64,000 nt of DNA from Dokdonia pacifica (GTDB lineage Bacteria; Bacteroidota; Bacteroidia; Flavobacteriales; Flavobacteriaceae): assembly GCF_900188275.1 (NCBI RefSeq), contig NZ_FZNY01000008.1, positions 124,001-188,000 of the forward strand, written 5' to 3'. Both the position numbers and the translations under genes were made by a program. Positions within the stretch are counted from its first letter, which is position 1. Each line of letters opens with the position of its first letter. Under the pieces are notes generated by a model, which ran no database searches, was not told where the DNA came from, and saw only the letters and a list, made by a program, of their open reading frames with translations. Of the stretch, positions 3,919-58,813 are shown one piece after another.

Positions 3919-4425
3919 TCACCAGTGAAATTCGCGATCTTTTACTTCTAAGTCATCTCGTACTAAATAATCCGTAATTCTGCGACGGTTATTGAATTGT
4001 TTGTGCACATAAGAAAGCGTAAGAGAGTCTTTACTTAGATACAGGATTTTAAAAAACTTCTCATTAGATTCTTGCTGTAATAATTCAGGAATTTGATCAC
4101 TAGTTAATTTTAAATAATAGTCTCCTTTTTCGGAAGATGTGATTTCCCAAGTGGCTTCTAAAGAAGGACCACAATCTCTTTGCAAATCATTGTTATCCTT
4201 TACGAGTCCGCTTTCGCGAAAGCGTTGCCTGTATTTTAAAAAGCAATCCCCCATATTCATTCTTGTTTTTCCATTATATCGCTTTGCAATTTTCCAAGTC
4301 TTGACTGAATCTGCCGTTAATAAGTGTACAGCATTTTCAGGAATGATATAAGGTTCTTTTGTTTTGTCTTTACACGATATAAAGACGCTGAAAAGAATAC
4401 AGGAAAAAATTGCATATGGTTTCAT
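3919..4425 (-). CDS. Small lipoprotein of unknown function, lipocalin-like
   Basis: About 168 residues from the ATG at 4425; an ATG five codons upstream is possible, but the signal peptide starts with MKPYAIFS. The lipobox is FISC. The body (LLTADSVKTWKIAKRYNG, then WEITSSEKGDYYLKLTSD) resembles small lipocalin-like beta-barrel lipoproteins common in Flavobacteria, but I do not recognise a named family. The genome-wide palindrome (4209-4224) falls inside the gene and encodes RFRES, a loop between predicted strands. It diverges from the FKBP gene. Confidence 0.7.
   Translation of the reverse strand: MKPYAIFSCILFSVFISCKDKTKEPYIIPENAVHLLTADSVKTWKIAKRYNGKTRMNMGDCFLKYRQRFRESGLVKDNNDLQRDCGPSLEATWEITSSEKGDYYLKLTSDQIPELLQQESNEKFFKILYLSKDSLTLSYVHKQFNNRRRITDYLVRDDLEVKDREFHW
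4209..4224. repeat. Palindrome copy in small lipoprotein gene
   Basis: CGCTTTCGCGAAAGCG, frame giving RFRES. Confidence 0.95.
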
Positions 4426-4523
4426 ATCTCTAAAATACATATTCTATATTTCTATAAGGTATTAACGTATCGTATCACACCAATTAGATAGTGTATTTGT
4501 ATCTTAGGAGGAAATTACGAAGT

Positions 4524-4940
4524 ATGTCCAAATTATTTTCAATAATTGTAATGGTATGTATTGCATCATTTAGTTGTCAAAAACACACACAACAACAAAA
4601 TGGTATGATTACAACGGTATCAGGATTACAATATAAAATCCTGAAAGAAGGGACAGGAGAGGAAGCAAAATTGGGTCAAGATGTTCAGATACACGAGAGT
4701 ACTTCGTATAGAGATGGAACACTTATCTTTTCTTCAGAAGGAATGAAACCACTTCAATTTACACTGGGAGGAAAAATGGTAATTCAAGGAGTAGATGAAG
4801 GCGTACGCGGTATGAAAAAAGGAGAGATTCGTAAACTTATTGTTCCAACTTCACTAAGTAAACGCTCTAGTTATCCACCCATATTATCTAAAGATTCCAT
4901 TTTAGTTTATAGAATAGAACTTATTGATATCATACACTAA
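4524..4940 (+). CDS. FKBP-type peptidyl-prolyl cis-trans isomerase, lipoprotein
   Basis: The 138-residue protein begins at the ATG at 4524; reading from 4491 would add residues ahead of the signal peptide. The lipobox is SFSC (Cys18). The FKBP core follows: TVSGLQYKILKEGTG, a shortened YRDG strand, LGGKMVIQGVDEGVRGMKKGEIRKLIVP, and VYRIELIDI. It catalyses proline isomerisation and probably helps fold exported proteins. The classic DGxxFDSS strand reads DGTLIFSSEG, which is an acceptable variant. The SnoaL-like gene starts 10 nt downstream, so cotranscription is likely. Confidence 0.85.
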   Translation: MSKLFSIIVMVCIASFSCQKHTQQQNGMITTVSGLQYKILKEGTGEEAKLGQDVQIHESTSYRDGTLIFSSEGMKPLQFTLGGKMVIQGVDEGVRGMKKGEIRKLIVPTSLSKRSSYPPILSKDSILVYRIELIDIIH

Positions 4941-4950
4941 ACATCCTACT

Positions 4951-5421
4951 ATGAAAGAGGTTATTGAAAAATTTTATACTGCATTTGCGGCCAAAGATCC
5001 AGAAGCAATGATTGCTTGTTATCATAAAGATATTCAATTTGAAGATCCTGCATTTGGCGTGCTTACGGGCGAAAAGCCAGGTCAGATGTGGCGTATGTTA
5101 TGCGCATCTCAAAAAGACAAAGAGTTTCTAATTGCTTTTTCTGATATCACGTATGATCAAGGAAAAGGAACGGCACATTGGGAAGCCAAATATAACTTTA
5201 GTAAAACCGGACGTAAAGTACATAATAAGATAGATGCTACTTTTGAGTTTAAAGATGGTAAAATCATCAAACATATTGACACCTTTAATCTTCGTAAATG
5301 GGCCGGACAAGCATTAGGTTTTAAAGGAGCCTTAATAGGAGGCACTAACTTCTTTAAGAATAAATTACAAGCGCAAACTAAGAAAGCACTGGATGTATTT
5401 ATAGCAATGCAAAAGGATTAA
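4951..5421 (+). CDS. SnoaL/NTF2-like fold protein
   Basis: The 156-residue cytoplasmic protein starts with MKEVIEKFYTAFAAKDPEAMIACYHKDIQFEDPAFG. This is the classic alpha-helical entry and first strand of SnoaL/NTF2-like proteins, and TFNLRKWAGQ follows at the end of the sheet. Members are small cone-shaped enzymes or binding proteins; the active-site content cannot be assigned. The start is placed at the ATG at 4951, because the longer reading frame overlaps the end of the FKBP gene without adding conserved sequence. The 193-nt gap behind it shows no strong hairpin. Confidence 0.8.
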   Translation: MKEVIEKFYTAFAAKDPEAMIACYHKDIQFEDPAFGVLTGEKPGQMWRMLCASQKDKEFLIAFSDITYDQGKGTAHWEAKYNFSKTGRKVHNKIDATFEFKDGKIIKHIDTFNLRKWAGQALGFKGALIGGTNFFKNKLQAQTKKALDVFIAMQKD

Positions 5422-5614
5422 TTCGCAGTATTTGATGTTACGGTTTTTATTTTGATTTAGTACGACAACTACCTCTTCAGGTATTTTATTATGTTGTCAA
5501 TTATTCCTTGTTTACATTTTTACACGTTAACACTAATTAACATAAGAGGAAGTAGGAGTACCATAAAATGAATTGTTTAATAATAAAGAATTCATTATTC
5601 AAAAAAAAACAATT

Positions 5615-6226
5615 ATGAAAAAGTCCCTTTCTCTCTTATTCGCTTTATCCTTAGTATGTATGTCTTTTCAGTGCGAGGATGAACCCAATGAAGTTATCAT
5701 AACAAATAACTTTAAAGCTACTGTATCTACTACAAATGTATCTCTAAATGACACCTTGTGGATTACTGGCAGAGTATCTTCACAAGCCTTTAATGAAACA
5801 CTTGGAGACTCCATCCCTAATGATTTTAACAATGGGGATTTAGTTTCTATTTACAAGCTAAGACCTGCTATGGATCAAAGTAATAGTGTAGACGCTATTA
5901 ATAATTTTGAGATCATTGAAGAAGTTGGACAAACTTCCCGTTTAGGTGCATGTCCCAATGGTGGTTTAGCTATTGAAGGGACACTTTCTGAAGACAGTTC
6001 TGAATATCGTTATGAAATTGGTTTAAAACCAGTGGAAGAAGGAGACTATGTACTCAGTTGGAATTTTGATACTTCTATAACAAATACCGATAGGAATACA
6101 GAAATCTTATCTAATTATCCTGTAGATGGCAATCCAAATACGTTAGAGTTTGACAATTGTGGTATTGTTTCTACATTACCTAACATTGATACTTCTACAA
6201 AATTATATTTCTTTTCTGTGGAATAA
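5615..6226 (+). CDS. Lipoprotein of unknown function
   Basis: About 203 residues from the ATG at 5615; the open frame extends upstream from a TTG, but the signal peptide MKKSLSLLFALSLVCMSFQC starts here. The lipobox is SFQC, followed by an acidic EDEPNE linker. The rest is beta-rich (FKATVSTTNVSLNDTLWITGRV), and two or three Cys residues (ACPNGG, FDNCGI) may form a disulfide. I recognise no family. The gene ends in a terminator it shares with the convergent guaB gene. Confidence 0.65.
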   Translation: MKKSLSLLFALSLVCMSFQCEDEPNEVIITNNFKATVSTTNVSLNDTLWITGRVSSQAFNETLGDSIPNDFNNGDLVSIYKLRPAMDQSNSVDAINNFEIIEEVGQTSRLGACPNGGLAIEGTLSEDSSEYRYEIGLKPVEEGDYVLSWNFDTSITNTDRNTEILSNYPVDGNPNTLEFDNCGIVSTLPNIDTSTKLYFFSVE

Positions 6227-6235
6227 CTAAAGGTT

Positions 6236-6272: not shown

Positions 6273-6326
6273 TATGAATGTTTGATCTTTACGTACTATT
6301 ATATAGTCGTATAAGAATATTATGAA

Positions 6327-7858: not shown

Positions 7859-7872
7859 GCTTTCGCGAAAGC
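7859..7872. repeat. Palindrome copy in guaB leader
   Basis: GCTTTCGCGAAAGC, about 60 nt upstream of the guaB start and downstream of its promoter, so it should be transcribed and could form a hairpin in the leader RNA. Confidence 0.9.
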
Positions 7873-8429: not shown

Positions 8430-8432
8430 CGA

Positions 8433-8885: not shown

Positions 8886-11081
8886 TTAATAACAATCCAT
8901 GAATAGTTGTTGATTCTTTTCAAAATATATTAATGGACGTTTTAATTCTTCATTTGAAACCTGTTCTAACAGCTCTAACACTTGATACTGCATTGCTAAT
9001 GATCCGCATATCATAATCGCACCTCCTGTAGTCAATACTTCGGCTATAAGAGCTCGTTTTGTAGCTAAAACATCTTGCACATACTGTTGATTTCCTTCTC
9101 TGGAATAAGCATTTTTATAAGATTTTATACGCTTTCGCGAAAGCGCACGACGCATAAACTTCTCATACATTGCAAAAGACTCTTCTGTACGACCTCCCCA
9201 AAATATATGCATTGGGATTTGTTTTGTGTTTTCTTCTATCATTCCTAAAAAAGGAGCGATTCCAGTTCCATTTGCAATACATATAATAGAACGCGCATGT
9301 TTAGGGAAATGAAACTTCGTATTCTTTTCTAGAGTACCACTTATTTTGTTGCCCAACTCAAGCGTACTCATGTATGAAGAACATTTCCCTTGGTCATGCT
9401 TCTTAACACTTAACACAATTTTCTTATCTATTTTCGCTACAGAATACTGCCGTGCTTTTGTTTCATTTTCTGGCGTAATCGCTACCAAATCCCCAGATTG
9501 AAATGGTACTCTTTTCGCACTTTTTAACTGAAGTATAAAGGTGTCATCCTTATTAAGATCTGTCTTTTCTACAACAGTAAAGCTGTGTAGCTTCTTTTTA
9601 TTTTGACGTATAGATGCTTGTAGTGACATTTCTGTGTGTGTATTCCAATCGTGTACCCAATGCTGAAAGGAATCTTCAGATTGATCATCTATTTTATGTA
9701 AAGGCATCACAGGTTGATACATAGGGTTTTTATGTAATAATGCATCTACACGTATTGCAAATCGACAATACTTTGGATAAATAGATGATCCGAAGCCTAC
9801 TACTGCAAATTTTAAAGGAGTTATAGGGGTGATTTTTGCTACTAATTTTTCAAAATTACGAGCATTTGTAGGGGCATCTCCATCTCCATACGTGGCCGTA
9901 AAGATGAGTAAATGTGTGGCTTTTTTATAGGTACTATACTCATTTAGTGAAGACATAAAAACAGTTTTCCCTTGTTGAACAAGCGATCTATGCACCGCTC
10001 TTGCAAACGTATATGTGTTTCCTGTTTCTGATCCTACCAATAAAATATATTCACTAGCATCTTTACCTTGAGAAACTATTGGCTTTTCTGATTTTGATTT
10101 TTTACTACGCTTTAAAGTCATAGCAATACCAGAGTATATAAAAAACAATATACTCATACTAGCGACTAGTAACACCAATGACCAAAGTACACTCCCCTGA
10201 CCTGTATGCAATCTAAAACTTAATTGAGATGCTACTCGAACAAATGGATATGTTAACTCGCTTACAACAGCACCATTATATTGATGTATGAATAACTCTT
10301 TATCTAGTAATGCTACTTCATAATAGTCTTCGGTATCTTCAGAAAAAGGAAATGTTATTTTTCGCACTTCATTAAGAGAAGTTTGCTTAAAGATTGGGAA
10401 ATCAATAAGATCTAGTGATGGTTTATTTTCAGTTCCATCAACATCCCAATGATGCTGTAAATCACTTTCAGGTAGTAAGGAAAACTTCTCTGCAGAAAGA
10501 TACACTCCTGTGATCGCAAGTATTAAAATAGGATATAACAACCACCTTCCTAAAATAACATGATACCGCTGATTAAAATTACGTTCTTGAACCTTTGTAT
10601 AGAGTTTTAAAAAACCTCCTTGTCGTTGTGCCAATACTAAAAGTCCTGTGACTGCGATCAAACAAAGCAATAGAGATACCAATCCTATAAAAAACCGTCC
10701 TATACTTTTTAAGAAAAGTGACCTATGAAGGTTTGTTGTAAAACTAAAAATAGGAGCTCTCTCCTTTACTTCTCCAAGTATCTTTCCTGTAATAGGGTCT
10801 ATATACCCTGTCTGACTTTCTCCATCTTTAGTAATGACAGATGCTATGACAAAATCTGAAGGTGTTACTTCAAATTCTAATACTTCATCATATTCATTTT
10901 TGAGCGTTTGGATAGTTTCTCCTAAAGATATTTCATGGAGGTTGTTTACAACATAAGGTTGTATACTATTAGATATAGGTTCAAATGCTAGAATAATTCC
11001 AGTGATAGAAGCTATAATTAGAAATAAAGCAGAAGATATAGCCAGTACTAAGTGACTATACCTCCAGAGAGAAAGTACCAT
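8886..11081 (-). CDS. PepSY-domain membrane flavodoxin/FAD/NAD(P)H reductase
   Basis: The 731-residue protein is a fusion. The N-terminal half (1-330) is a PepSY_TM unit with membrane segments near 10-35, 135-155, 175-195 and 300-325 and His residues suited to haem. A flavodoxin domain follows at about 345-480 (LLVGSETGNTYTFARAVH). The C-terminal third is a ferredoxin-reductase-like module with an FAD site (RQYSVAKI) and a nicotinamide site (IICIANGTGIAPFLGMIEE), as in CysJ. It should pass electrons from NAD(P)H through FMN/FAD across the inner membrane, most likely to reduce ferric siderophore or haem iron. That role is inferred from context. A palindrome copy encodes ALSRKR in the nicotinamide domain. 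Confidence 0.9.
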   Translation of the reverse strand: MVLSLWRYSHLVLAISSALFLIIASITGIILAFEPISNSIQPYVVNNLHEISLGETIQTLKNEYDEVLEFEVTPSDFVIASVITKDGESQTGYIDPITGKILGEVKERAPIFSFTTNLHRSLFLKSIGRFFIGLVSLLLCLIAVTGLLVLAQRQGGFLKLYTKVQERNFNQRYHVILGRWLLYPILILAITGVYLSAEKFSLLPESDLQHHWDVDGTENKPSLDLIDFPIFKQTSLNEVRKITFPFSEDTEDYYEVALLDKELFIHQYNGAVVSELTYPFVRVASQLSFRLHTGQGSVLWSLVLLVASMSILFFIYSGIAMTLKRSKKSKSEKPIVSQGKDASEYILLVGSETGNTYTFARAVHRSLVQQGKTVFMSSLNEYSTYKKATHLLIFTATYGDGDAPTNARNFEKLVAKITPITPLKFAVVGFGSSIYPKYCRFAIRVDALLHKNPMYQPVMPLHKIDDQSEDSFQHWVHDWNTHTEMSLQASIRQNKKKLHSFTVVEKTDLNKDDTFILQLKSAKRVPFQSGDLVAITPENETKARQYSVAKIDKKIVLSVKKHDQGKCSSYMSTLELGNKISGTLEKNTKFHFPKHARSIICIANGTGIAPFLGMIEENTKQIPMHIFWGGRTEESFAMYEKFMRRALSRKRIKSYKNAYSREGNQQYVQDVLATKRALIAEVLTTGGAIMICGSLAMQYQVLELLEQVSNEELKRPLIYFEKNQQLFMDCY
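9130..9145. repeat. Palindrome copy inside PepSY reductase gene
   Basis: CGCTTTCGCGAAAGCG read in the frame giving LSRKR. Confidence 0.95.
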
Positions 11082-14099: not shown

Positions 14100-16265
14100 A
14101 TGAAAGCTAACTACCTACTAATCTTAACGTTATATTTTTTTGCTTTCGCGAAAGCGTATACACAAGAAATACAACCTCAAAAGAAAAAAGACACTACGCG
14201 CGTCTCTGAACTTGATGAAGTTGTTCTTACAGCAACCCGCACAGAACGCCAATTATCATCATTACCACTACCCGTTACATTAGTTTCTGGCAAGACTATC
14301 AAACAATCTGGAAGTTTACGAATAGACGATATTCTGGCAGAACAAACTGGTCTCGTTCTAGCTACAGATGAAAGTGGTTTTGAAGGCATACAAATACAAG
14401 GAATAGATTCTGATTATACGCTTGTATTAATAGATGGAGTTCCTCTTGTAGGAAGACGGGCTGGTAATTTTGACCTAAGCAGACTTACCGCTGGGAATAT
14501 AAAGCAAATCGAGGTTGTAAAAGGGCCTTCTAGTAGCTTATATGGTTCTGAAGCATTAGCAGGCGTTATTAATATCATTACTAAAACACCTAAAAATGAG
14601 AAGTTAAAAGGAGAAGCTTCTTATCGTGTAGGTTCCTTTACAGAACAGGATATTAACCTTTCATTCCAACAAAAGAAAGGAAAAATACGATACGCTATTT
14701 TTGGGAATCGTTTTTCAAGTGAAGGGTATGATCTCACCCCAGAAACAGTATCTCAGACGGTAAATCCATTTGAAAACTATACGTTTAATGGCAGATTTTA
14801 TTATGATTTTTCAGATCGATTAAAACTATTTGCTTCTGGGCGTTATTTTGATCAATCACAAGATTCTGGATTTTCTTTTACAGATACCAATACCAATGGA
14901 GAACAAGTAATTATTACTGCTGCTGGTGAAGCTAATGAACAAGACTGGAATGGGCATGTACGATTGGATCAAGAGTGGAATGATAACCTAACCACTTCAT
15001 ATGAATTGTACTATACAAATTACATCGCTGAATCCCTTGCAAGAGATACTGATACCGATACAATTATTACCGATACATTTTTTGATCAACAATTAGTACG
15101 ACCTGAAATACGCAGTAATTACACTTTTGAAAATGAAGGTACTCTAACAGCAGGTGCTGGGTACCAATACGAATCATTAGATCGTTCGTTTTTTGATGAG
15201 CAAGTGAGTTTTAATTCGCAATATGTATATGCACAATATGATTTTAATCCTATTGAAAATTTGAATATAATCGTTGGAGGGCGCTTTGACAATCACTCTG
15301 AATACAGCAACCAATTAAGCCCTAAAGTAGCTTTACGCTATAATATTACAGATGAACTAGCCTTAAAAGGTTCTGTAGGGTATGGATTTAAAGCGCCCGA
15401 TTTCAGACAACTTTATTTCAATTTCACCAACTCAACAGTAGGATACACAGTATTAGGTTACAATGCTGTACCAAATGAATTACAAACATTATTTGAACAA
15501 GGGCAATTAGCATTAGGACAAAATATATCTACTGTAGAAGGGCAAGCAAATGTGAATGAAATCATTTCTCAATTTGATGATGCATTAAAAGCCGAAAGTT
15601 CAGTAGGATATAACATAGGGTTTACTTATCACCCTTTTAATGAACTTACCCTAGATATTAATGCCTTTAGAAATAACTTTAGCGACCTTATTGACACCCA
15701 AGTAATCGCAAGAAAAACAAACGGTCAAAATGTATTTAGTTATAAAAATTTTGACCGCATTTATACAGAAGGACTTGAGCTGAATGCTACTTATAAAATC
15801 ACACAGCATATTAAAATTAGTGGTGGTTACCAATTATTATATGCCTTCAATAAAGATATTAAAGACCAAGTAGAAAATGGAGAACTCTTTGTAAGAGACG
15901 AAGACTTGACCTCTATTCCACTCTCTGAAGATGATCACTTTGGTTTTTTTAATAGATCAAGACATACCGCTAATCTCAAACTCTTTTATAACATTCCAAA
16001 ATGGACATCCAATATCAATGCTCGCGTCATTTATCGAAGTAAATACGGATTAGGAGATACCAATGGAAACGGAACATTTGATGCCTTTGATGACGATGCC
16101 ATAGTAGTAGATGGTTTTGCTACTGTTAATATAGCTGCTAGTAAAAAGCTATTTGACCACTTTGAAATACAAGCAGGAGCCGATAATCTGTTTGATTTCC
16201 AAAATACTAACATTCCTGGAATTCCAGGAACTCGAGGATACGTGAAAATTAATTACCAATTTTAA
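14100..16265 (+). CDS. TonB-dependent outer-membrane receptor (haem/siderophore/cobalamin type)
   Basis: The 721-residue protein has a signal peptide, then a TonB-box-like region (SELDEVVLTATRTERQ), a plug at about 55-165 (DDILAEQTGLVLATDESGFEGIQIQGIDSDYTLVLIDG, GSSSLYGSEALAGVINIITK region) and a 22-stranded barrel ending in NYQF. It lacks the N-terminal carboxypeptidase-like domain of SusC proteins and resembles CirA/FepA/HmuR receptors. It is directly followed by a HmuY-family gene, so haem is the likely ligand. A palindrome copy encodes AFAKA exactly at the end of the signal peptide, creating the cleavage site. Confidence 0.93.
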   Translation: MKANYLLILTLYFFAFAKAYTQEIQPQKKKDTTRVSELDEVVLTATRTERQLSSLPLPVTLVSGKTIKQSGSLRIDDILAEQTGLVLATDESGFEGIQIQGIDSDYTLVLIDGVPLVGRRAGNFDLSRLTAGNIKQIEVVKGPSSSLYGSEALAGVINIITKTPKNEKLKGEASYRVGSFTEQDINLSFQQKKGKIRYAIFGNRFSSEGYDLTPETVSQTVNPFENYTFNGRFYYDFSDRLKLFASGRYFDQSQDSGFSFTDTNTNGEQVIITAAGEANEQDWNGHVRLDQEWNDNLTTSYELYYTNYIAESLARDTDTDTIITDTFFDQQLVRPEIRSNYTFENEGTLTAGAGYQYESLDRSFFDEQVSFNSQYVYAQYDFNPIENLNIIVGGRFDNHSEYSNQLSPKVALRYNITDELALKGSVGYGFKAPDFRQLYFNFTNSTVGYTVLGYNAVPNELQTLFEQGQLALGQNISTVEGQANVNEIISQFDDALKAESSVGYNIGFTYHPFNELTLDINAFRNNFSDLIDTQVIARKTNGQNVFSYKNFDRIYTEGLELNATYKITQHIKISGGYQLLYAFNKDIKDQVENGELFVRDEDLTSIPLSEDDHFGFFNRSRHTANLKLFYNIPKWTSNINARVIYRSKYGLGDTNGNGTFDAFDDDAIVVDGFATVNIAASKKLFDHFEIQAGADNLFDFQNTNIPGIPGTRGYVKINYQF
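14142..14155. repeat. Palindrome copy in TonB receptor signal peptide
   Basis: GCTTTCGCGAAAGC followed by G, frame giving AFAKA. The AKA triplet of residues is a good signal peptidase I site. Confidence 0.95.
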
Positions 16266-19550: not shown

Positions 19551-20925
19551 CAGTGAAGGGTTTGATCCAATTTTTGTGTGTAAATGATTCTTTTATTTCT
19601 GCCAGATTTACATCTGGGTCTATATATGTGGTACTCAACCGCCCATTAAGAGCTACGTATGATTCTACATACACCTCAACATTTTTATGACCTTGCGCTG
19701 TAAAATGATCGCGAAGATAATGTGCATATTCCAATATAAAGTCAGGCTGAAAGCTCATTTGTTTTTCTTGTAAGGGTGTCAAGAAATCTGCATTATTCAC
19801 ATAAAAGCGTTTGCCCGTCACTCCATCTTTGATTTTGAATTGTGCATATCCTGATTTTTCCATGAGCATCACACGCCAAGAAAAACGATACCCTTCTTCT
19901 GTCCAAAAAAGCTCTCCTGGATAAAAAGCATATCGCCAAGGGAGTAGTAATTGGATACAAAAGAACACGACCACAACTCCTACAGACAGTTTGTATCGTT
20001 GTACAGAAAGGGGTTTCCAAACGGTAGTTCCTTCTAAAAGTTCTTTGGGATATTTTATCGCTTTCGCGAAAGCGTATACCACTTTCTTATGCAAACTAGC
20101 ATCAAAAAATATCAATGCGCTTACAATCATGATGTATGGGAACATTCCTATCGGGAATAAAACGCGTGTCAATACATGAAAGATCACCACCATCACAAAG
20201 GCAAACGTACGCGTAGGCTTCCAGAGTAATAAAAATGGAATAAACAGATCATAGCCAGCGCCTATCCAACTAAAGGCATATTGCGCCCATTCTTGACTTA
20301 CTATATCTCCAATCAAAGGAATATCAAATTTTGAAGGTAGCCATATTTTAAGGGGCATTGCTTCTAGTAACCAATCACTGTTTAATTTGGCAAGTCCTGC
20401 ATACACATAGACAATTGCTAATACTAATTTAATGCTATCAATGGTCCAACGCGGTACATATCCAATAGCCATTGTTGTAGAAAGAGGATCTTTTTGTTTA
20501 CGCTTTCGCGAAAGCGTATCTAGCGAAAAATAATGCCCTGCAGGTACAAAAATTAATAAGAAACTAAGTATAGAAATGAAATAGTAATGATTGAGATACA
20601 TGGTTTTATCCATCAACTCTATGTATGTAAAGCTCAGAAAAAAGGTAATCATTGCAAAGCGACACTTCCATCCTATTGTGATCATCACAGCACTTGCGGC
20701 ACAAATACCGAATAAAAGATAGGTCCATTCGCCCCAAGGTCGTACCCAACTAAAGCCGTAAAATGTAAAATGAAATTCTGGAGTGATGTAAAATTTTTCA
20801 ATCCATCCATAACTCCAAAAACGAATAATACTCACAAACATCAGAATACCAAAAAACACACGAAAGACCGCTAATGGAGCGGCCTCTATGTGGCTATTCA
20901 AATATGTTTGGAGTTTTTTATTCAT
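19531..20925 (-). CDS. HTTM / vitamin K-dependent carboxylase-like membrane protein
   Basis: The 464-residue protein starts MNKKLQTYLNSHIEAAPLAVFRVFFGILMFVSIIRFWSYGW and has many membrane segments. MDKTMYLNHYYFISILSFLLIFVPAGHYFSLD and GYDLFIPFLLLWKPTR are hallmarks of the HTTM domain shared with gamma-glutamyl carboxylase. A soluble C-terminal domain (about 330-464) follows. Bacterial members have no proven function; here one is locked between imelysin and a TonB receptor, suggesting a role in metal transport or modification of a surface protein. Two palindrome copies lie in it, encoding AFAKA and TLSRKR. Confidence 0.88.
   Translation of the reverse strand: MNKKLQTYLNSHIEAAPLAVFRVFFGILMFVSIIRFWSYGWIEKFYITPEFHFTFYGFSWVRPWGEWTYLLFGICAASAVMITIGWKCRFAMITFFLSFTYIELMDKTMYLNHYYFISILSFLLIFVPAGHYFSLDTLSRKRKQKDPLSTTMAIGYVPRWTIDSIKLVLAIVYVYAGLAKLNSDWLLEAMPLKIWLPSKFDIPLIGDIVSQEWAQYAFSWIGAGYDLFIPFLLLWKPTRTFAFVMVVIFHVLTRVLFPIGMFPYIMIVSALIFFDASLHKKVVYAFAKAIKYPKELLEGTTVWKPLSVQRYKLSVGVVVVFFCIQLLLPWRYAFYPGELFWTEEGYRFSWRVMLMEKSGYAQFKIKDGVTGKRFYVNNADFLTPLQEKQMSFQPDFILEYAHYLRDHFTAQGHKNVEVYVESYVALNGRLSTTYIDPDVNLAEIKESFTHKNWIKPFTDEIKGL
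20059..20074. repeat. Palindrome copy 1 in HTTM gene
   Basis: CGCTTTCGCGAAAGCG, frame giving AFAKA. Confidence 0.95.
20501..20516. repeat. Palindrome copy 2 in HTTM gene
   Basis: CGCTTTCGCGAAAGCG, frame giving LSRKR. Two copies in different frames within 450 bp of one gene. Confidence 0.95.
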
Positions 20926-25246: not shown

Positions 25247-25656
25247 TGAATGATTTTGCTATAGAGTATTTAGATCATGTTGCTATACGTGTGAAAGATA
25301 TAGAAGTTACTGCTTCATGGTATGAAAACGTTCTTGGACTTAAACGCAAAGTAGTTCCAGAATGGGGAGAATATCCTATTTTTATGCTGGCAGGCAAAAC
25401 GGGTATTGCCATATTTCCTGCTACACTAGATGACCCACCTCTGAATGCTTCTTCAAGAAACGTAAGAATAGATCATTTTGCTTTTTATGTAAGTATGGAA
25501 AATTTCGCGAAAGCGAGAAAAAAATACGAAGCCTTACAACTAGAATATATTTTTAGAGATCATACACACTTCCATTCTATCTATACAGAAGATCCTGATG
25601 GCCATACTGTAGAACTTACCACTATTATTGGAGATTCAGATACATTTTATGGGTAA
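25246..25656 (+). CDS. VOC (glyoxalase-fold) family protein
   Basis: The 136-residue protein shows the VOC pattern: YLDHVAIRVKDIEVTASWYENVLGLK with metal ligand His, then RIDHFAFYVSMENF, and HTHFHSIYTEDPDGHTVELTTII with the closing DPDGHxVEL. It is a cytoplasmic metal-dependent lyase or dioxygenase of unknown substrate. A palindrome half encodes FAKAR at 25503-25515. The gene is the last of the PP2C operon and is followed by a hairpin terminator. Confidence 0.85.
   Translation: MNDFAIEYLDHVAIRVKDIEVTASWYENVLGLKRKVVPEWGEYPIFMLAGKTGIAIFPATLDDPPLNASSRNVRIDHFAFYVSMENFAKARKKYEALQLEYIFRDHTHFHSIYTEDPDGHTVELTTIIGDSDTFYG
25503..25515. repeat. Partial palindrome copy in VOC gene
   Basis: TTTCGCGAAAGCG: the left arm is cut to TTT, the right arm complete; frame FAKA. 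Confidence 0.85.
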
Positions 25657-26422: not shown

Positions 26423-26423
26423 T

Positions 26424-27662
26424 ATGGAACCAAAACTTATAGACCATCTTTTCAGGCACCACTACGGGAAGATGGTCTCTGTTTTGGTACGTATTTTTGG
26501 ATTACCACATTTAGAAATTATAGAAGACGCTATACAAGATACATTTATCAAAGCCACACTTTCCTGGAAAAATAATCAACCAGACAATCCAGAAGCATGG
26601 CTTACACAAGCAGCAAAAAATAGAGTACTAGACTTATTTCGGAAACTCACTGCAGAAAAGAAACGGGTTCCTCATATCGCATCTGGTATTGACACCATTG
26701 CTATACAAGAACTCTTTTTGGACAGTGAGATTGAAGATAGTCAGCTACGTATGATCTTTACTGCTTGTCACCCTTATCTCAATCCTAAAGATCGTATTGC
26801 TTTTGCTTTAAAAACGGTTTCTGGGTTTAGTAGTAAAGAAATTGCAGCAGCATTACTTTCCAAAGAAGAGACCATAAAAAAACGCCTGAGCCGAGCACGC
26901 ACTTCCATTCAAAAAGAACATATTTCTTTTCAGATTCCAAAAGGAAAGACATTAGCATTACGTTTGGACAGTGTTTTAGAAGTATTATATCTCATTTTTA
27001 ATGAAGGGTTTCATTCTACAAAAAAAGAAATTATTGTTCGCAAAGAACTCTGCGCCGAAGCAATGCGTTTATGTAAAATGCTTCTCAATCATAAAAATAC
27101 AAAGACCACAAAATCCTACGCCCTATTTGCTATTATGTGTTTTCATGCAGCGCGTATAGATTCTAAAACGACGCATGACAATCAGCTCTTAGATTTACAA
27201 CATCAAGATCGCTCTCAATGGTATTTCCCGCTTATCAAACTAGGAAATACTGCCATGCACAAAGCCGTAGAAACCGATACCTTCTCTACCTATCATTATG
27301 AAGCTGCTATTGCTGCCGAACATCTCAAAGCAAAAACATTTAAAGATACCAATTGGAAAGCAATCTTACATTGGTATGAATGCTTATATGCGTTACAACC
27401 TATGCCTATACACTTGCTCAATATCGCGGTAGTTCAATTACAGGATTCCCGCTTTCGCGAAAGCTACCAACTCCTGCAACAATTAGAGCCAGAAACGTTG
27501 GGACAACGTAGTTACCTTTATTATGCGACACTATCGGATTATTATCTAACACAAGAAGATTACAAAAAAGCAATAATGCACATGGATATCGCTATAGATC
27601 TAGTAACAAATCAACAAGAAAAAGAATATTTAGAGAAGAAGAGAATTGCGCTCATTCTTTAA
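26424..27662 (+). CDS. ECF42-type RNA polymerase sigma factor (DUF6596)
   Basis: The 412-residue protein starts at the ATG at 26424. Sigma-70 region 2 (HHYGKMVSVLVRIFGLPHLEIIEDAIQDTFIKA) and region 4 (FSSKEIAAALLSKEETIKKRLSRAR) occupy the first 180 residues. The large C-terminal half is helical and TPR-like (DUF6596), including RAQ-type repeats. No anti-sigma gene is adjacent, as expected for ECF42, in which the C-terminal domain replaces it. A palindrome copy encodes RFRES in a late helix (27451-27464). The last 33 nt overlap the convergent downstream gene. Confidence 0.92.
   Translation: MEPKLIDHLFRHHYGKMVSVLVRIFGLPHLEIIEDAIQDTFIKATLSWKNNQPDNPEAWLTQAAKNRVLDLFRKLTAEKKRVPHIASGIDTIAIQELFLDSEIEDSQLRMIFTACHPYLNPKDRIAFALKTVSGFSSKEIAAALLSKEETIKKRLSRARTSIQKEHISFQIPKGKTLALRLDSVLEVLYLIFNEGFHSTKKEIIVRKELCAEAMRLCKMLLNHKNTKTTKSYALFAIMCFHAARIDSKTTHDNQLLDLQHQDRSQWYFPLIKLGNTAMHKAVETDTFSTYHYEAAIAAEHLKAKTFKDTNWKAILHWYECLYALQPMPIHLLNIAVVQLQDSRFRESYQLLQQLEPETLGQRSYLYYATLSDYYLTQEDYKKAIMHMDIAIDLVTNQQEKEYLEKKRIALIL
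27451..27464. repeat. Palindrome copy in sigma factor gene
   Basis: CGCTTTCGCGAAAGCT core, frame giving RFRES. Confidence 0.92.
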
Positions 27663-28197: not shown

Positions 28198-29760
28198 TTA
28201 ATCCTGTAAATTATACTTCTCTACCACTCTGTCTACACAATTAATTCCATCTATAGCCGCCGAAATAATACCACCTGCATACCCTGCTCCTTCCCCACAC
28301 GGATATAATCCTTTTATTTCTATATGCTCTAACGTAACAGGATCACGAGGGATAGACACCGGAGATGATGTTCTACTTTCCGGAGCATGTAATACAGCAT
28401 CATTAGTTAAATACCCTTTCATCTTTCTTCCAAAAGCAAGGAATGCTTTCTTAAGACGCTTTGAGAGCATTGGAGGTAATACCTTATTTAAGTCTACCGA
28501 GACAATTCCCGGTTGATAGGAAGTCTTTGGAAAGTTTTTTGAAATACGTCCATCTACAAAATCACGCATACGTTGTGCAGGTACTGCTTGTGTTTTTCCA
28601 GCAGCTTCCCAACAAGCACGCTCTACAGATTTTTGAAAATCTAAGCACACAAACGGGTCGTCTTCTTTATAATTGGGTAAATCTTCTGGAGTCACACTCA
28701 CCACAATCCCAGAGTTTGAATACGGGTTATCACGTTTGGAAGGACTCCATCCATTGGTTACTACTTCTTCCTGTGCCGTCGCACATGGTGCAATAATACC
28801 GCCTGGACACATACAAAAAGAATACACCCCCATCCCATCTACTTGTTGTACCAAGCTATAGGAAGCTGGTGGCAAATACGGATTATCACTATCACCATGA
28901 TACTGGATATGATCAATCAATTCTTGCTGATGCTCTATACGAACGCCTATCGCAAAAGGCTTTGCTTCTATCTTTACGTTTCTTTTATGTAGTAAGTAAA
29001 AAATATCACGAGCACTATGTCCTGTTGCTAGGATTACGTTTTTAAAAGATAACCAGTCTGTATCATTAATTTGTATTTCTGAAATCTGCTGATCTACGAT
29101 TTTAAGATCGGTAAGTTTACTTTCAAAACGAACTTCACCGCCTGCTTCAATAATCGCTTCTCGCATGGCAGTAATAATTTTTGGCAACTTATTAGTCCCG
29201 ATATGTGGATGCGCATCTACCAAAATATCTTCTACAGCACCAAAATGTACAAACCATTCTATCGCCTTTAGTACATTACCTCGTTTTTTAGATCGTGTAT
29301 ATAACTTCCCATCTGAATACGTACCCGCACCCCCTTCTCCAAAACAATAGTTAGAGTCTTCATTTACAATATGATCTTTATTGATAGCTGCAAGATCTCG
29401 ACGTCTTGCTCGTACGTCTTTTCCTCGTTCAAAAACAATAGGCTTCAATCCTCCTTCTATAGCACGTAAAGCAGCATATAATCCAGCGGGTCCTGCACCA
29501 ATAATGGCAATTTCAGGAGCATTATGTACCTCTTGAGGTACAAACACAGGAAGAGACTCTCGTACTTCATCATGCTTCCAAAACTCAATTTGTAATGAAA
29601 TCTTTACAGGTGATTTACGCGCATCAATACTACGCTTTCGGATATCCCATTCTCGTACATCATCTGCGCGTAGTCTCGCTTTCGCGAAAGCTTTCTCAGC
29701 AATATAATCATCATCTTCAGCTTGATGCGGTAATACATTTATTTGAACGAGTGTACTCAT
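28198..29760 (-). CDS. FAD-dependent dehydrogenase of the COG2509 family
   Basis: The 520-residue protein has an N-terminal domain of unknown role (LVQINVLPHQAEDDDYIAEKAF), then a dinucleotide-binding fold IAIIGAGPAGLYAALRAIEGGLKPIVFERG at about 83. Mid-protein ILATGHSARDIFYLL and the C-terminal GEGAGYAGGIISAAIDGI complete the HI0933/COG2509 architecture. The reaction is unknown. A palindrome copy encodes AFAKAR in the N-terminal domain. A 123-bp MITE-like element lies just upstream. Confidence 0.88.
   Translation of the reverse strand: MSTLVQINVLPHQAEDDDYIAEKAFAKARLRADDVREWDIRKRSIDARKSPVKISLQIEFWKHDEVRESLPVFVPQEVHNAPEIAIIGAGPAGLYAALRAIEGGLKPIVFERGKDVRARRRDLAAINKDHIVNEDSNYCFGEGGAGTYSDGKLYTRSKKRGNVLKAIEWFVHFGAVEDILVDAHPHIGTNKLPKIITAMREAIIEAGGEVRFESKLTDLKIVDQQISEIQINDTDWLSFKNVILATGHSARDIFYLLHKRNVKIEAKPFAIGVRIEHQQELIDHIQYHGDSDNPYLPPASYSLVQQVDGMGVYSFCMCPGGIIAPCATAQEEVVTNGWSPSKRDNPYSNSGIVVSVTPEDLPNYKEDDPFVCLDFQKSVERACWEAAGKTQAVPAQRMRDFVDGRISKNFPKTSYQPGIVSVDLNKVLPPMLSKRLKKAFLAFGRKMKGYLTNDAVLHAPESRTSSPVSIPRDPVTLEHIEIKGLYPCGEGAGYAGGIISAAIDGINCVDRVVEKYNLQD
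29678..29691. repeat. Palindrome copy in FAD dehydrogenase gene
   Basis: GCTTTCGCGAAAGC, frame giving AFAKA. A decayed copy with one extra base (TTTCTGCGAAAGCG) lies at 29795-29808 upstream of the gene. Confidence 0.92.
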
Positions 29761-30022: not shown

Positions 30023-31393
30023 TTACTTCAATCGTTCAATTAAAGCATCTAGTGTTACGGTTTCCTGTTCTCCGGCTACCATATCTTTTAACGCAAACGT
30101 TTTGTTTTCCATCTCTTCGCCACCCGCTAAAATTACAAATGGAATTTCACGACGATTGGCATACGTCATTTGCTTTTTCATCTTAGCCGCATCTGGATAT
30201 AACACCGCAGTAATCCCGTTAGAACGAAGCTGTTTAATTGCTTTCATAGCATATAATGCTTCTTCTTTCCCAAAGTTGATAAACAACACTTTGATTCCTT
30301 CTATCGCTTCTTCTGGAAATAAATCTAATTGTTCAATTGTATTATAAATACGATCTAATCCAAAAGATATCCCTACCCCACTTACATCCTTTAAGCCAAA
30401 AATTCCTGTAAGATCGGCATAACGGCCACCGCCACCTATACTTCCCATCTTCACCGCTTCTGGTGCCGCTACTTCAAAAATGGCGCCTGTATAATAATTC
30501 AAACCACGAGCCAGCGTAACATCAAGTTGTAAGGTAGCACTTTCCAACCCTAAACTTTCGATTGCTTCATTAATAAAGACTAACTCCTCAATTCCTTGCA
30601 TTCCTGTTTCTGAAGTAGCCAGCAGTCCTTTGAGTGTTGCTAACTGGTCTCCAAAACTACCTGAAATCGTAAATAGTGGATCTACGGTTTTGATAGCCTC
30701 CTCAGAAATACCTTTAGAAAGCATTTCTGCGATCACTTTCTCTTTCCCTATTTTATCAAGCTTATCTAAAGCCACTGTAAAATCTATGAGTTTATCACTT
30801 GCTCCAATCACCTCAGCAATTCCAGAGAGGATTTTACGGTTATTCATTTTAATGGTAACTCCTTCAAGTTTCAACGCAGTAAATACAGCATCATACAATT
30901 GTACAAACTCTACTTCCTGCCATAAAGAATCACTCCCTACTACATCGGCATCACATTGACAAAACTCTCTGTAACGATTATTTTGCGGATTATCTGCACG
31001 CCATACTAATTGCATTTGAGAACGCTTAAATGGCAATACAATATCATTTCTATGTTGTACTACATAACGTGCAAAAGGCACGGTTAGGTCATAACGCAAG
31101 GCTTTTTCTGAGATTTGTGGCGTAAGTGCATTTGAGTTTGCTTTCGCGAAAGCGTCATCCTTCACTTTACTTAAATAATCCCCACTATTCAAAATTTTAA
31201 AAATCAAACGGTCTCCTTCTTCCCCATACTTTCCCATGAGTGTACTACTTTTTTCAAAACTCGGAGTTTCAATAGGCTGAAATCCATAGTGCTGAAATTG
31301 TGTACGAATGGTATTCATAATATAGGATCGTTTTGCGACCTCTATCGGTGAAAAATCGCGAGTTCCTTTAGGTATCGAAGGTTTTTGTGCCAT
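30023..31393 (-). CDS. hisS: Histidyl-tRNA synthetase
   Basis: The 456-residue class II synthetase charges tRNA-His. Class II motif 1 region (RSYIMNTIRTQFQHYGFQPIETPSFEKSS), motif 2 (RYREFCQCDADVVG), the histidine A motif LARGLNYYTGAIFE and motif 3 (GGGRYADLTGIFG, GISFGLDR) are all present. The C-terminal anticodon domain covers about 360-456. A palindrome copy encodes AFAKAN in a loop before EKALRYDLTVP where other HisRS proteins are shorter. Confidence 0.97.
   Translation of the reverse strand: MAQKPSIPKGTRDFSPIEVAKRSYIMNTIRTQFQHYGFQPIETPSFEKSSTLMGKYGEEGDRLIFKILNSGDYLSKVKDDAFAKANSNALTPQISEKALRYDLTVPFARYVVQHRNDIVLPFKRSQMQLVWRADNPQNNRYREFCQCDADVVGSDSLWQEVEFVQLYDAVFTALKLEGVTIKMNNRKILSGIAEVIGASDKLIDFTVALDKLDKIGKEKVIAEMLSKGISEEAIKTVDPLFTISGSFGDQLATLKGLLATSETGMQGIEELVFINEAIESLGLESATLQLDVTLARGLNYYTGAIFEVAAPEAVKMGSIGGGGRYADLTGIFGLKDVSGVGISFGLDRIYNTIEQLDLFPEEAIEGIKVLFINFGKEEALYAMKAIKQLRSNGITAVLYPDAAKMKKQMTYANRREIPFVILAGGEEMENKTFALKDMVAGEQETVTLDALIERLK
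31140..31154. repeat. Palindrome copy in hisS
   Basis: GCTTTCGCGAAAGCG, frame giving AFAKA. Confidence 0.92.
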
Positions 31394-35494: not shown

Positions 35495-35514
35495 TACGCT
35501 TTCGCGAAAGCGTA
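35495..35514. repeat. Extended palindrome in DUF6495 leader
   Basis: TACGCTTTCGCGAAAGCGTA, a perfect 20-bp palindrome transcribed in the 5' leader. Confidence 0.95.
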
Positions 35515-43899: not shown

Positions 43900-44760
43900 T
43901 TATACTGCTTTCAAACTTAAATCCAAATTATATACAGAATGTGTGAGTGCTCCACTAGAAATATAATCTACACCACATAATGCATACTCACGTATGGTTT
44001 TTTCATTAATCCCCCCAGAGGACTCCGTAAGGCATAAGTCACCTATACGGCGTACGGCTTCTTTGGTATCTTCATAATTAAAGTTATCTATCAAAATACG
44101 GTATACATCATTATGACTTTGTAAAATCTCATCTATTTCGTCTAGATCCCGAGCTTCTACAATAATTTTCAAATCACGTTTTGTTTCTTTTAGATACGCT
44201 ACTGTTTTTTGAATCGCTTGCGTAATACCTCCTGCAAAATCTATATGATTATCCTTAAGCATAATCATATCATATAATGCAAATCTGTGATTTTCGCCTC
44301 CTCCTATTTTTACAGCCCATTTTTCTAATGCGCGTATACCGGGTGTTGTTTTACGAGTATCTAAAATGCGTGTTTTTGTACCGTCCAGTAAATTCACAAA
44401 AAAGGCTGTTTTCGTTGCAATGGCGCTCATACGCTGCATGGCGTTCAGCACCAATCGTTCTGCTTTTAAAATAGATTGTGAAGGACCTGTTACGTAAAAA
44501 GCAATATCTCCATGCTGTACACGACTTCCATCAGGAATACGATCTTCTACTTGAAGTAATGGATCTACGTAGGCAAAGACCGCTTTCGCGAAAGCTACCC
44601 CAGCAAGAATCCCTTCGTCTTTTACTAATAATTTTGCCTTACCCGTGGCTGTTGCTGGAATACAGGCTAACGAACTGTGATCACCATCACCTACATCTTC
44701 ACGAATAGCATTTGCAATAATACCTTCTATCTCTTGATCAAATTGCGTTTGAGAAATCAT
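43900..44760 (-). CDS. nadC: Nicotinate-nucleotide pyrophosphorylase (quinolinate phosphoribosyltransferase)
   Basis: The 286-residue enzyme (start ATG 44760) converts quinolinate and PRPP to nicotinate mononucleotide in NAD synthesis. Motifs include REDVGDGDHSSLACIPATATGKAKLLVKDEGILAG, ILDTRKTTPGIRALEKWAVKIGGGENHRFALYDMIMLKDNHI and ESSGGINEKTIREYALCGVDYISSGALTHSV, complete and of family length. The open frame extends further upstream through the heptamer arrays, but that extension is repeat-derived and not credible. A palindrome copy encodes GVAFAKA, where the family has a similar GVxFAK. Confidence 0.97.
   Translation of the reverse strand: MISQTQFDQEIEGIIANAIREDVGDGDHSSLACIPATATGKAKLLVKDEGILAGVAFAKAVFAYVDPLLQVEDRIPDGSRVQHGDIAFYVTGPSQSILKAERLVLNAMQRMSAIATKTAFFVNLLDGTKTRILDTRKTTPGIRALEKWAVKIGGGENHRFALYDMIMLKDNHIDFAGGITQAIQKTVAYLKETKRDLKIIVEARDLDEIDEILQSHNDVYRILIDNFNYEDTKEAVRRIGDLCLTESSGGINEKTIREYALCGVDYISSGALTHSVYNLDLSLKAV
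44582..44595. repeat. Palindrome copy in nadC
   Basis: GCTTTCGCGAAAGC, frame giving AFAKA, at a position where the family normally has similar residues. Confidence 0.92.
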
Positions 44761-44813
44761 ATATATAACTAGTTTATGTAAAAATAAGGAAAGCCCTACA
44801 AATAACGAATAAT

Positions 44814-44909
44814 GAAATACGAAATACGAAATACGAAATACGAAATACGAAATACGAAATACGAAATACGAAATACGAAATACGAAATACGAAATACGAA
44901 ATACGAAAT
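44814..44909. repeat. Heptanucleotide tandem array 1 (GAAATAC)n
   Basis: Thirteen perfect consecutive copies of GAAATAC plus a partial unit. It lies between the divergent nadC and rlmH genes and is read in the frame as 7-residue periods if translated. Confidence 0.97.
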
Positions 44910-44937
44910 TTAAAAAATCAACTTTTATACTCCAAAC

Positions 44938-45042
44938 CTGAAACCTGAAACTTGAAACTTGAAACCTGAAACTTGAAACTTGAAACCTGAAACCTGAAAC
45001 CTGAAACCTGAAACCTGAAACCTGAAACCTGAAACCTGAAAC
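44938..45042. repeat. Heptanucleotide tandem array 2 (YTGAAAC)n
   Basis: Fifteen consecutive 7-nt units, CTGAAAC with four TTGAAAC variants near the left end. It is separated from array 1 by 28 nt of unique sequence. Confidence 0.97.
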
Positions 45043-45108
45043 TAAGTACTCAAAACTAACTACTAATAACATTCAGAGTAAGAAAGTAAGAATTAGTATT
45101 TTTACCCC

Positions 45109-50735: not shown

Positions 50736-50757
50736 ATACGCTTTCGCGAAAGCGTAT
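50736..50757. repeat. Extended palindrome between convergent genes
   Basis: ATACGCTTTCGCGAAAGCGTAT, a 22-bp perfect palindrome. Confidence 0.95.
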
Positions 50758-53360: not shown

Positions 53361-53939
53361 ATGACACTCGTTTTTGCTACAAATAATCCCAATAAACTAA
53401 AAGAAGTACAAGCTTTATTACCAGACTTTATCGAGTTAAAAAGTCTTGAAGATATTGGATGTACAGAAGATATCATTGAAGATGCACCTACTATAGAAGG
53501 GAATGCGCTTTTAAAAGCCCAGTTTGTAAAAGAAAAATATGGGTATGATTGTTTTGCAGATGATACAGGTCTTGAAGTGACAGCTTTAGATGGAGCTCCT
53601 GGTGTATATTCGGCTAGATATGCAGGCCCACAGAAAAATGCTTCAGACAATATGAATAAACTCTTGATTCATTTAGCCACTCAAACAGATAGAAGTGCGC
53701 AGTTTAAGACTGTGATCGCTTTCGCGAAAGCGGATAAAACATATACATTTGAAGGGATATGCCAAGGTCAGATTACGAGAGAACGTATGGGAGATGGAGG
53801 TTTTGGATATGACCCTATCTTCATGCCAGATGGATATGACGCTACATTTGCTCAAATGGCGCTTGCCTTAAAAGGAAAAATAGGACACCGCGGAAAAGCT
53901 GTAGCTAAGTTTGTAAACTATGTTGCTACACAGGAGTGA
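53361..53939 (+). CDS. rdgB: XTP/dITP (non-canonical purine NTP) pyrophosphatase
   Basis: The 192-residue HAM1/RdgB enzyme removes ITP/dITP and XTP from the nucleotide pool. The N-terminal VFATNNPNKLKEVQ, CFADDTGLEVTALDGAPGVYSARYAG (active site), and GDGGFGYDPIFMP are intact. A palindrome copy encodes IAFAKAD between beta strands. Family-standard length. Confidence 0.97.
   Translation: MTLVFATNNPNKLKEVQALLPDFIELKSLEDIGCTEDIIEDAPTIEGNALLKAQFVKEKYGYDCFADDTGLEVTALDGAPGVYSARYAGPQKNASDNMNKLLIHLATQTDRSAQFKTVIAFAKADKTYTFEGICQGQITRERMGDGGFGYDPIFMPDGYDATFAQMALALKGKIGHRGKAVAKFVNYVATQE
53717..53732. repeat. Palindrome copy in rdgB
   Basis: CGCTTTCGCGAAAGCG, frame giving AFAKA. Confidence 0.95.
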
Positions 53940-56970: not shown

Positions 56971-56991
56971 GTAAGTATACTTATAAAATAG

Positions 56992-57025
56992 AAAAACGGC
57001 TATCTGAAAACAGATAGCCGTTTTT
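56992..57025. terminator. Bidirectional terminator
   Basis: AAAAACGGCTATCTG-AAAA-CAGATAGCCGTTTTT, 15-bp perfect stem shared by the CarboxypepD gene (+) and the VOC gene (-). Confidence 0.92.
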
Positions 57026-57055
57026 TATTAAACTGTCATATAAGAAAGGGAACAA

Positions 57056-57427: not shown

Positions 57428-57430
57428 AAT

Positions 57431-57958: not shown

Positions 57959-58017
57959 AAGGTTTTAGTGTGTTGATTATTCCTTTAAAGTTAAACAAAA
58001 TAGAATAATATATAACC

Positions 58018-58054
58018 AAAAAGAGACTTACCCAATACGGATAAGCCTCTTTTT
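58018..58054. terminator. Terminator of peroxiredoxin gene
   Basis: AAAAAGAG-a-CTTA ... TAAG-c-CTCTTTTT around an 11-nt loop, with one A/C mismatch. Confidence 0.8.
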
Positions 58055-58070
58055 GATATACTTTTTATAC

Positions 58071-58706
58071 TTAAAGCGCTGCTATAATGTCAGATGGATC
58101 AGCTCTTAGCTTATAATCCTCTGCTAGGTAATGATAACTTACTTTTCCATTTTGTTCAATGATATAGGTCGCAGCAATAGGTAATTCACTGGCTTCATTC
58201 CCTTGACTTTCTATCAAGTCAATTCCAAACTTTTTATACAGCGTTACTAAATCTTCTGGCAATTGGTATACGAGCCCTAAAGAGCGTGCTAATTCATTAT
58301 TTTTACTAGTCAGCACATAAAAATCTAACTCGTTTTTTTCTTGAGTGGATATGCTATTGTCTGGTGTTTCTGGAGTAATTGCAACAAGATTTGCGCCCTT
58401 AGCTTTTATTTCTGGTAAGGCATTTTGTAATGCTTTCAAAGCAATATTACAATAAGGACACCAACCGCCTCTATAAAATGTAAGTACTACTTTACCTTCT
58501 TGTAAAAGGTCTTCTAATAAAATTTGCTCTCCTTTTGCATTGGGTAATGTAAAATTAGAGAACTGATCTCCCGTTTTAGTTGCTTTTGCTAAAATATCTG
58601 TGGCTTCAAGTGCAGCAATAGCATTCTTCATAGTATCCTGAGCAGCGCCTGGATGCCTTTTTACACTATTATCTGCATATTCTTTAAGTTGTTCTGTAAG
58701 TGTCAT
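58071..58706 (-). CDS. Peroxiredoxin-like AhpC/TSA-family protein
   Basis: The 211-residue protein has a thioredoxin fold with peroxidatic and second Cys in FYRGGWCPYCN (Cys83, Cys86). An N-terminal helical section of about 45 residues precedes it. It belongs to the AhpC/TSA-like proteins that reduce peroxides; the CxxC pair means the disulfide may form within the motif. It is monocistronic, and an extended palindrome lies 85 nt upstream of its start. Confidence 0.88.
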   Translation of the reverse strand: MTLTEQLKEYADNSVKRHPGAAQDTMKNAIAALEATDILAKATKTGDQFSNFTLPNAKGEQILLEDLLQEGKVVLTFYRGGWCPYCNIALKALQNALPEIKAKGANLVAITPETPDNSISTQEKNELDFYVLTSKNNELARSLGLVYQLPEDLVTLYKKFGIDLIESQGNEASELPIAATYIIEQNGKVSYHYLAEDYKLRADPSDIIAAL

Positions 58707-58791
58707 TTCTGAATTTATTTTTGCATATAGTCTCTACTATGATTCAATAATTACATAGTAACACTCATTAAAAAGTGTTAAATTTTCCTGA

Positions 58792-58813
58792 GTACGCTTT
58801 CGCGAAAGCGTAC
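58792..58813. repeat. Extended palindrome upstream of peroxiredoxin gene
   Basis: GTACGCTTTCGCGAAAGCGTAC, a 22-bp perfect palindrome. Confidence 0.95.

Follow-up and report, generated by a model that had tools for sequence, protein, structure and literature searches.

Two proteobacterial families, Pasteurellaceae and Neisseriaceae, are known to carry uptake signals throughout their genomes. The uptake signal sequence (USS) of Haemophilus and the DNA uptake sequence (DUS) of Neisseria occur in hundreds of exact copies with semi-conserved flanks, are tolerated within genes and are restricted to a clade; Haemophilus uptake is described in PMC7811141. HIP1 (GCGATCGC; PMC4390886) is an abundant palindrome in cyanobacterial coding DNA. 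The palindrome considered here, GCTTTCGCGAAAGC, was noticed in a 64,000-nt stretch of Dokdonia pacifica DNA (Flavobacteriaceae; contig NZ_FZNY01000008.1, positions 124,001 to 188,000), hereafter the window. It is present in 903 exact copies in the 5.52-Mb genome to which the window belongs (G000), and we propose, with a probability of about 0.4, that it is a self-DNA tag that is read by a dimer and works like an uptake sequence.

The motif has all of the above features in common with USS and DUS and shares with USS an even spacing (tested on phages HP1 and HP2) and carriage by phages. It differs in being palindromic, with a symmetric core and symmetric flanks, in its longer core and in its phylum; moreover, no T2SSE pilus ATPase is found in 9 of the 14 motif genomes examined. 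Chi is likewise genome-wide, at about one copy per 3–5 kb, but Chi sites are short and asymmetric. The sites parS, Noc and matS resemble the motif as palindromes of about 13–16 bp read by dimers, and those of parS and Noc share its TTTC...GAAA halves; the half-spacing of parS and Noc is off by 1 bp, ordinary parS is also present, and the motif has ~900 copies with no regional bias in the samples. A reading of the window made from its letters alone (the sequence-only reading) had compared the palindrome with HIP1. The comparison holds for abundance, palindromic form and tolerance in coding DNA, but not for density (lower than that of HIP1), length (an 8-bp octamer against a 14–16 bp core, which sits in a biased stretch of about 60 bp), even spacing at one copy per 3–6 kb, presence on some phages, sequence or phylum. 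PMC4390886 mentions neither Bacteroidetes nor Flavobacter, and the accessible portions of the open-licence literature on Dokdonia and palindromes contain nothing on such a motif. The 14-mer, 12-mer and 16-mer are absent as exact text from the open-licence literature, in which only the 10-mer TTTCGCGAAA was matched.

In the proposed mechanism, a dimeric protein would recognise each half-site with one of its subunits. Selection would maintain coverage such that any fragment of a few kilobases holds one site; close sites are avoided and long gaps are rare, with phage DNA seemingly under a like rule. The use would be recognition of self-DNA during DNA transfer, as for the Haemophilus and Neisseria signals, through a palindromic tag and another receptor. 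A wider proposal is put forward more tentatively, namely that the motif may belong to a novel class of self-DNA tags, long palindromes that signal uptake or acquisition through a dimeric receptor independent of the type IV pilus. In marine Flavobacteriaceae such a tag would be common to the chromosome, phages and mobile islands, and it would naturally trace horizontal transfer out of the clade.

Copy number, spacing and conservation

The sequence-only reading had suggested a genome-wide count of the 14-mer, with numbers near random as a reason to abandon the idea. The 903 copies greatly exceed a random number; as a control, the reversed pattern is found 0 times in G000. All 17 genus-mates searched hold 369–905 copies. 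Beyond the genus, only g11 (578, 664 and 609 copies) and g210 (408) are motif-rich among 397 family genomes, giving 408–664 copies in genomes G027, G281, G433 and G230; below these, the counts drop to 19, 17 and 16. None of 395 genomes sampled from the phylum has more than 6 copies, except the window's own. The single-contig chromosomes G016, G006, G009 and G230 contain 899, 757, 808 and 408 copies, respectively, and copy number is hardly related to genome size (Pearson 0.34, p 0.25; 13 genus members at least 90% complete).

The copies are spaced more evenly than chance predicts. Between 1.0 and 1.42 Mb of G016 (131 sites), the mean gap is 3.2 kb with a coefficient of variation (CV) of 0.58 versus 0.99 for random placement, and 6 gaps are shorter than 1 kb versus 34.6 expected. 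The first 230 kb of G016 give a CV of 0.61 and 2 such gaps versus 16.4 expected, and the 13 gaps in the window have a CV of 0.57 (P 0.03). As controls, the Haemophilus uptake sequence is evener than random in phage HP1 (17 copies, CV 0.51, P 0.004) and in phage HP2 (17 copies, CV 0.54, P 0.006), although HP2 is close kin of HP1 and the two controls are nearly one observation. Chi in 250 kb of Escherichia coli is more clustered than random (67 copies, CV 1.48; 1.50 without two copies in rhs genes), and its 40 copies on one strand are indistinguishable from random (CV 1.17). Such coverage is the pattern of an uptake or acquisition signal, and HP1 and HP2 illustrate that an established uptake signal has it on phages too. 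The closest pair in the 420 kb of G016 (L214:13519 and 13649) is 130 bp apart and lies directly 5' of a gene read as ruvA by eye.

Coding DNA is a tolerated place and not a preferred one, since 51 of the 131 sites fall between open reading frames (ORFs) that cover 90.5% of the 420 kb; the ORF calls are crude and the intergenic excess is approximate. The other 80 sites are read as AFAKA (48), the LSRK type (18) or the FRES type (14). The sequence-only reading had held that the palindrome can land anywhere in either orientation, and the absence of stops bears this out, but not an indifference to place. Intergenic copies favour neither convergent nor divergent gaps.

The consensus is sharp and is bordered by biased flanks. 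The 660 kb of G016 examined contain 197 exact, 14 one-mismatch and 29 two-mismatch sites; if mutation–selection balance applies, 14 against 197 with 42 possible neighbours would correspond to a scaled selection of ~6 per mismatch. Next to the outer C, the half-site flanks of the 197 sites carry TTA, less often TTC. In up to 145 sites (G016 1.0–1.42 Mb and the window), the bases 10–20 positions 5' of the core are 8% C and 30% G and those 3' of it 24% C and 9% G. The flanks are thus symmetric, GT-rich and C-poor on the 5' side and AC-rich and G-poor on the 3' side, and the bias fades by about 30 bases, leaving a biased stretch of about 20–25 bases per side. A like asymmetry is seen in g11 (20 sites), in g210 (10 sites, weaker), in island copies (33 sites) and in viral contigs below 50% GC (40 distinct flanks, a few of which may be chance matches). 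Six flanks from viral contigs above 50% GC lack it, and the matches there are probably due to chance.

The symmetric core raises the question of whether it acts as a nucleic acid structure, either an RNA or cruciform hairpin or a bidirectional transcription terminator. The core is self-complementary, but covariation between the arms is absent (211 sites, 30 positions, z from -1.5 to 1.8). Among the 29 two-mismatch sites in G016, 16 alter the outer two bases of one arm, 6 alter positions 4 and 13 (0-based) and 2 alter positions that would be paired; a recurrent degenerate class thus keeps one arm and the centre, and the window copy at 25501 belongs to it. The lack of covariation and the pattern of two-mismatch sites argue for a dimer that reads two half-sites and not for a hairpin, and speak for a dimeric protein with one subunit per half-site. 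For a terminator, the T-rich sequence before and A-rich sequence after the core are the reverse of what is required, convergent gaps hold 9 of the 51 intergenic copies and 20% of intergenic bases, and most sites lie inside ORFs. Structures of this kind are therefore highly improbable.

Scarcely more credible is the site of an orphan DNA methyltransferase, as has been proposed for HIP1. The core contains TCGCGA, and 222 of the 259 TCGCGA in the 660 kb of G016 are within TTTCGCGAAA. A core of 14–16 bp with 20-bp flanks, however, far exceeds the sites of methyltransferases, and the even spacing is left unexplained.

The sites are kept by selection at hundreds of places. In 16 genus loci, a site is exact in 250 of 321 aligned comparisons versus 2541 of 33032 for control 14-mers, and below 78% identity in 128 of 178 ordered comparisons (72%) versus 735 of 25187 (2.9%); as the same sites enter repeatedly, these comparisons are not independent. 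The hisS site was compared across the 80 named loci that were kept, in which the six best relatives are all titled Dokdonia (78–88% identity). It is exact in 5 loci and has one mismatch in 1 (together L016–L021). Variable residues occupy the place in the other 74, none of which has the 14-mer or AFAKA there; one of them, L022, probably a genus member, holds five motif copies elsewhere in the locus. The sequence-only reading had recognised that conservation of the coding sites as ordinary protein in relatives without the motif would undermine it; hisS, the sole gene compared residue by residue across genera, shows the opposite. The hisS genes of G014, G006, G010 and G011 (L189, L190, L191 and L192) have an insert of ~100–130 residues at the motif loop and no site there.

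It had also been asked whether the palindrome inserts or substitutes. The answer from these alignments is substitution: residues are replaced in hisS, where the place is free of indels in 79 of the 80 loci, and gaps fall at the site in 6 of the 321 comparisons. Many interspersed copies are also what mobile palindromic insertions of the REP, MITE or RPE type would leave, but such elements are contradicted by the same replacements and rare gaps and by the lack of anything common to the copies beyond flank composition, and they are the least plausible of the explanations considered.

A proposed self-DNA tag and its competitors

A number of observations weigh against the self-DNA tag. To our knowledge, the uptake and Chi signals known so far are non-palindromic. 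A T2SSE-type pilus ATPase is found above the cut-off in 5 of 14 motif genomes (G000 included) versus 2 of 16 others, and G016, G006, G009 and G230 have no match above the cut-off. ComEC was detected in 14 of 14 motif genomes but also in 15 of 16 motif-free genomes and, being equally common without the motif, does not discriminate. No competence experiment on Dokdonia is among the literature matches listed. PMC7965970 reports that Flavobacterium johnsoniae is not competent under the conditions of that study, so competence is not general in the family. Finally, even spacing could also serve chromosome architecture. On the other side, the same source describes Riemerella columbina, placed in Flavobacteriaceae, whose own DNA competes for transformation and in which foreign DNA at equal amounts does not. 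Within genus g1, the T2SSE/PilB-type ATPase is patchy, with 4 of the 10 members searched above the cut-off.

A different receptor is proposed because most of the tested motif genomes are without the usual pilus motor. For the same reason, and because the motif is palindromic, it is likened to the classical uptake sequence and not filed as one. Among the roles that the sequence-only reading had listed, uptake or self-recognition now fits best and Chi-like recombination fits worse. If the tag is real, it would be a palindromic equivalent in another phylum, mostly without the pilus motor, pointing to a second type of receptor and allowing a direct bench test of signal–receptor evolution. Even if the sites are architectural, their conservation, even spacing and sharp consensus over ~900 copies provide a handle on the reader protein.

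Chromosome architecture is the main rival. A dimeric nucleoid protein bound every ~3 kb would organise or anchor the chromosome, which is in keeping with dyad symmetry and independent half-sites, with strong conservation and with even spacing, each of 13 spaced 20-kb samples of G016 holding 4–8 sites. These samples, however, show no bias towards origin or terminus (the origin being placed roughly, from the skew of the samples and from parS-like sites near 0.74 Mb), in contrast to matS or Noc sites, and a confinement to the terminus of the matS kind is not seen. Chromosome folding would not require the evenly placed sites that some phages carry, and ParB is not the reader. We regard an architectural role as unlikely, though it remains the strongest competitor of the self-DNA tag.

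ParB and a ParB paralogue were rejected as readers, as genomes with and without the motif have similar numbers of copies. One ParB_N match is found in 13 of 14 motif genomes, and a second is found in G000 but also in motif-free G034, G035 and G070. A residue of the ParB recognition helix seemed discriminating in a partial alignment; with all 30 sequences aligned, the N at this position also occurs in motif-free G024, G071, G116 and G326. The parS-like sequence TGTTYCACGTGRAACA is present in all 14 genomes searched for it, 7 with the motif and 7 without, where a reversed parS control also gave 1–4 matches within 2 mismatches. Two parS-like copies lie about 1.9 kb apart in 11 of 14 genomes.

The third explanation, less likely again, is a Chi-like or defence self-mark at which degradation by a nuclease complex would halt and which chromosome, phages and mobile islands would all retain. 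The motif is carried by the chromosome, by islands and by some phages; its density is of the order of that of E. coli Chi; and the GT-rich DNA that precedes the core on either strand would be favourable to RecA loading. The spacing of Chi in the 250 kb of E. coli is nevertheless clustered, at more than twice the CV of the motif, and its form is short and asymmetric. A RecC homologue (PF04257) was found in 0 of 30 genomes, AddAB not being searched. A RecBCD–Chi system in particular is disfavoured by the absence of RecC and the clustered spacing of Chi.

Phages, islands and history of the motif

In IMG/VR, 41 stretches contain the 16-mer. Three of the four viral contigs scanned carry phage structural genes (tape-measure, portal, head, protease or terminase), and the fourth has mainly families without assigned function and a helicase. 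In viral contigs below 50% GC, the mean gap between sites is 4.4 kb with a CV of 0.44 (18 gaps, some from near-identical phages, with no random comparison). One phage, represented by five contigs, has 2–3 sites in each of the pieces read; its 24 relatives with 46–58% capsid identity have 0 sites in 238,147 bases, and 6 more distant relatives have no exact copy. The argument that carriage by phages excludes an uptake signal was overturned by HP1 and HP2, which hold 17 USS each.

In several other genera with few copies, these lie close together. A single 78-kb stretch of G116 contains 16 of its 16 copies, two contigs of G326 contain 18 of 19, a 40-kb stretch of G091 contains 12 of 17 and 17 kb of G361 contain 6 of 7. 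Contrary to this rule, the 9 copies of G184 are scattered over 6 contigs, and those of several genomes with 3–4 copies are also scattered. Six loci (L096–L101) from five further genomes are homologous islands, and six proteins of two island loci are assigned by Pfam to P-type ATPases, AcrB-type pumps, outer-membrane efflux proteins and a multicopper oxidase. The simplest reading is that the islands came by transfer from motif-bearing donors. The motif is already a usable tracer, as its few copies in several other genera mark islands of probable origin in this clade, some of them with genes for the efflux of copper and other metals. These homologous metal-efflux islands are found in five genera, and in four of them two motif copies are exactly 933 bp apart; by coordinates, the 933-bp pair is also present in G116, G326 and G200.

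The history of the motif within the family is told differently by two trees. In a hisS tree from a quick search, all motif rows lie on the same side of one branch (support 83), but a ParA+ParB tree rejects a single clade for the motif groups (p-AU 0.016). Independent acquisition by three lineages through transfer of the reader was withdrawn in view of this conflict. In the sampled DNA of g11 and g210, sites in genes shared with Dokdonia are at different places, with one apparent exception. A second iterated palindrome in other Flavobacteriaceae, GGTAAAATTTTACC, was considered and rejected: its 33 copies in 32 loci comprise 32 at one orthologous site in a conserved small gene and an extra copy in L047. 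In Salinimicrobium, the sequence AAAATGNCATTTT has 4 copies in L077, a locus on the 17–21 kb scale, and 2 in L093. One or more of the L077 copies are at a site common to many genera; the others might represent a further iterated palindrome.

Copies in the window

Exact copies of GCTTTCGCGAAAGC number 14 in the window, and a further copy has two mismatches (AATTTCGCGAAAGC); all are listed below with the strand of the ORF in brackets; the palindrome itself is assigned no strand.

4210..4223, exact motif in ORF 3919-4440(-), as RFRES
7859..7872, exact motif, intergenic, before ORF 6327-7799(-), IMP dehydrogenase by eye
9131..9144, exact motif in ORF 8886-11081(-), PepSY-TM/flavodoxin reductase, as LSRKR
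14142..14155, exact motif close to the start of a TonB-dependent receptor gene, in a signal-peptide-like stretch, as AFAKA
20060..20073, exact motif in ORF 19531-20925(-), HTTM / vitamin-K gamma-carboxylase-like, as AFAKA
20502..20515, exact motif in ORF 19531-20925(-), as LSRKR
25501..25514, degenerate copy in a glyoxalase-family ORF, as NFAKA, with the outer two bases of one arm altered
27451..27464, exact motif in sigma-70-family ORF 26388-27662(+), as RFRES
29678..29691, exact motif in an FAD-dependent protein gene (-), as AFAKA
31140..31153, exact motif in hisS (30023-31393, -), as AFAKA
35498..35511, exact motif, intergenic
44582..44595, exact motif in nadC (43900-45072, -), as AFAKA
50740..50753, exact motif, intergenic
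53718..53731, exact motif in rdgB/Ham1 (53361-53939, +), as AFAKA
58796..58809, exact motif, intergenic

The sequence-only reading had reported 15 core or near-core copies, with coordinates that prove to be off by 0–4 bases, and had expected far fewer than one from base composition. Both statements agree with the present count: the chance mean for copies with up to 2 mismatches is 0.16 in the window, and 0 of 100 shuffles gave 15. Its eleven genic copies, seven of them AFAKA, are reached only by including the degenerate NFAKA copy; by the ORF list, 10 of the 14 exact copies are genic, 6 as AFAKA and, as had been stated, two each as LSRKR and RFRES. The 4 intergenic exact copies are at 7859, 35498, 50740 and 58796. 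Eight of the 14 exact copies extend to the full 16-mer CGCTTTCGCGAAAGCG, which includes the outer C and G. The copies at 20060 and 20502 are 442 bp apart, the sole gap below 1 kb in the window. Some copies that encode AFAKA lie, by eye, in signal-peptide-like gene starts and are followed by Q or Y (window 14100-14170, L096:6390-6460 and L099:2725-2795); the A-x-A in these starts would suit a signal peptidase site.

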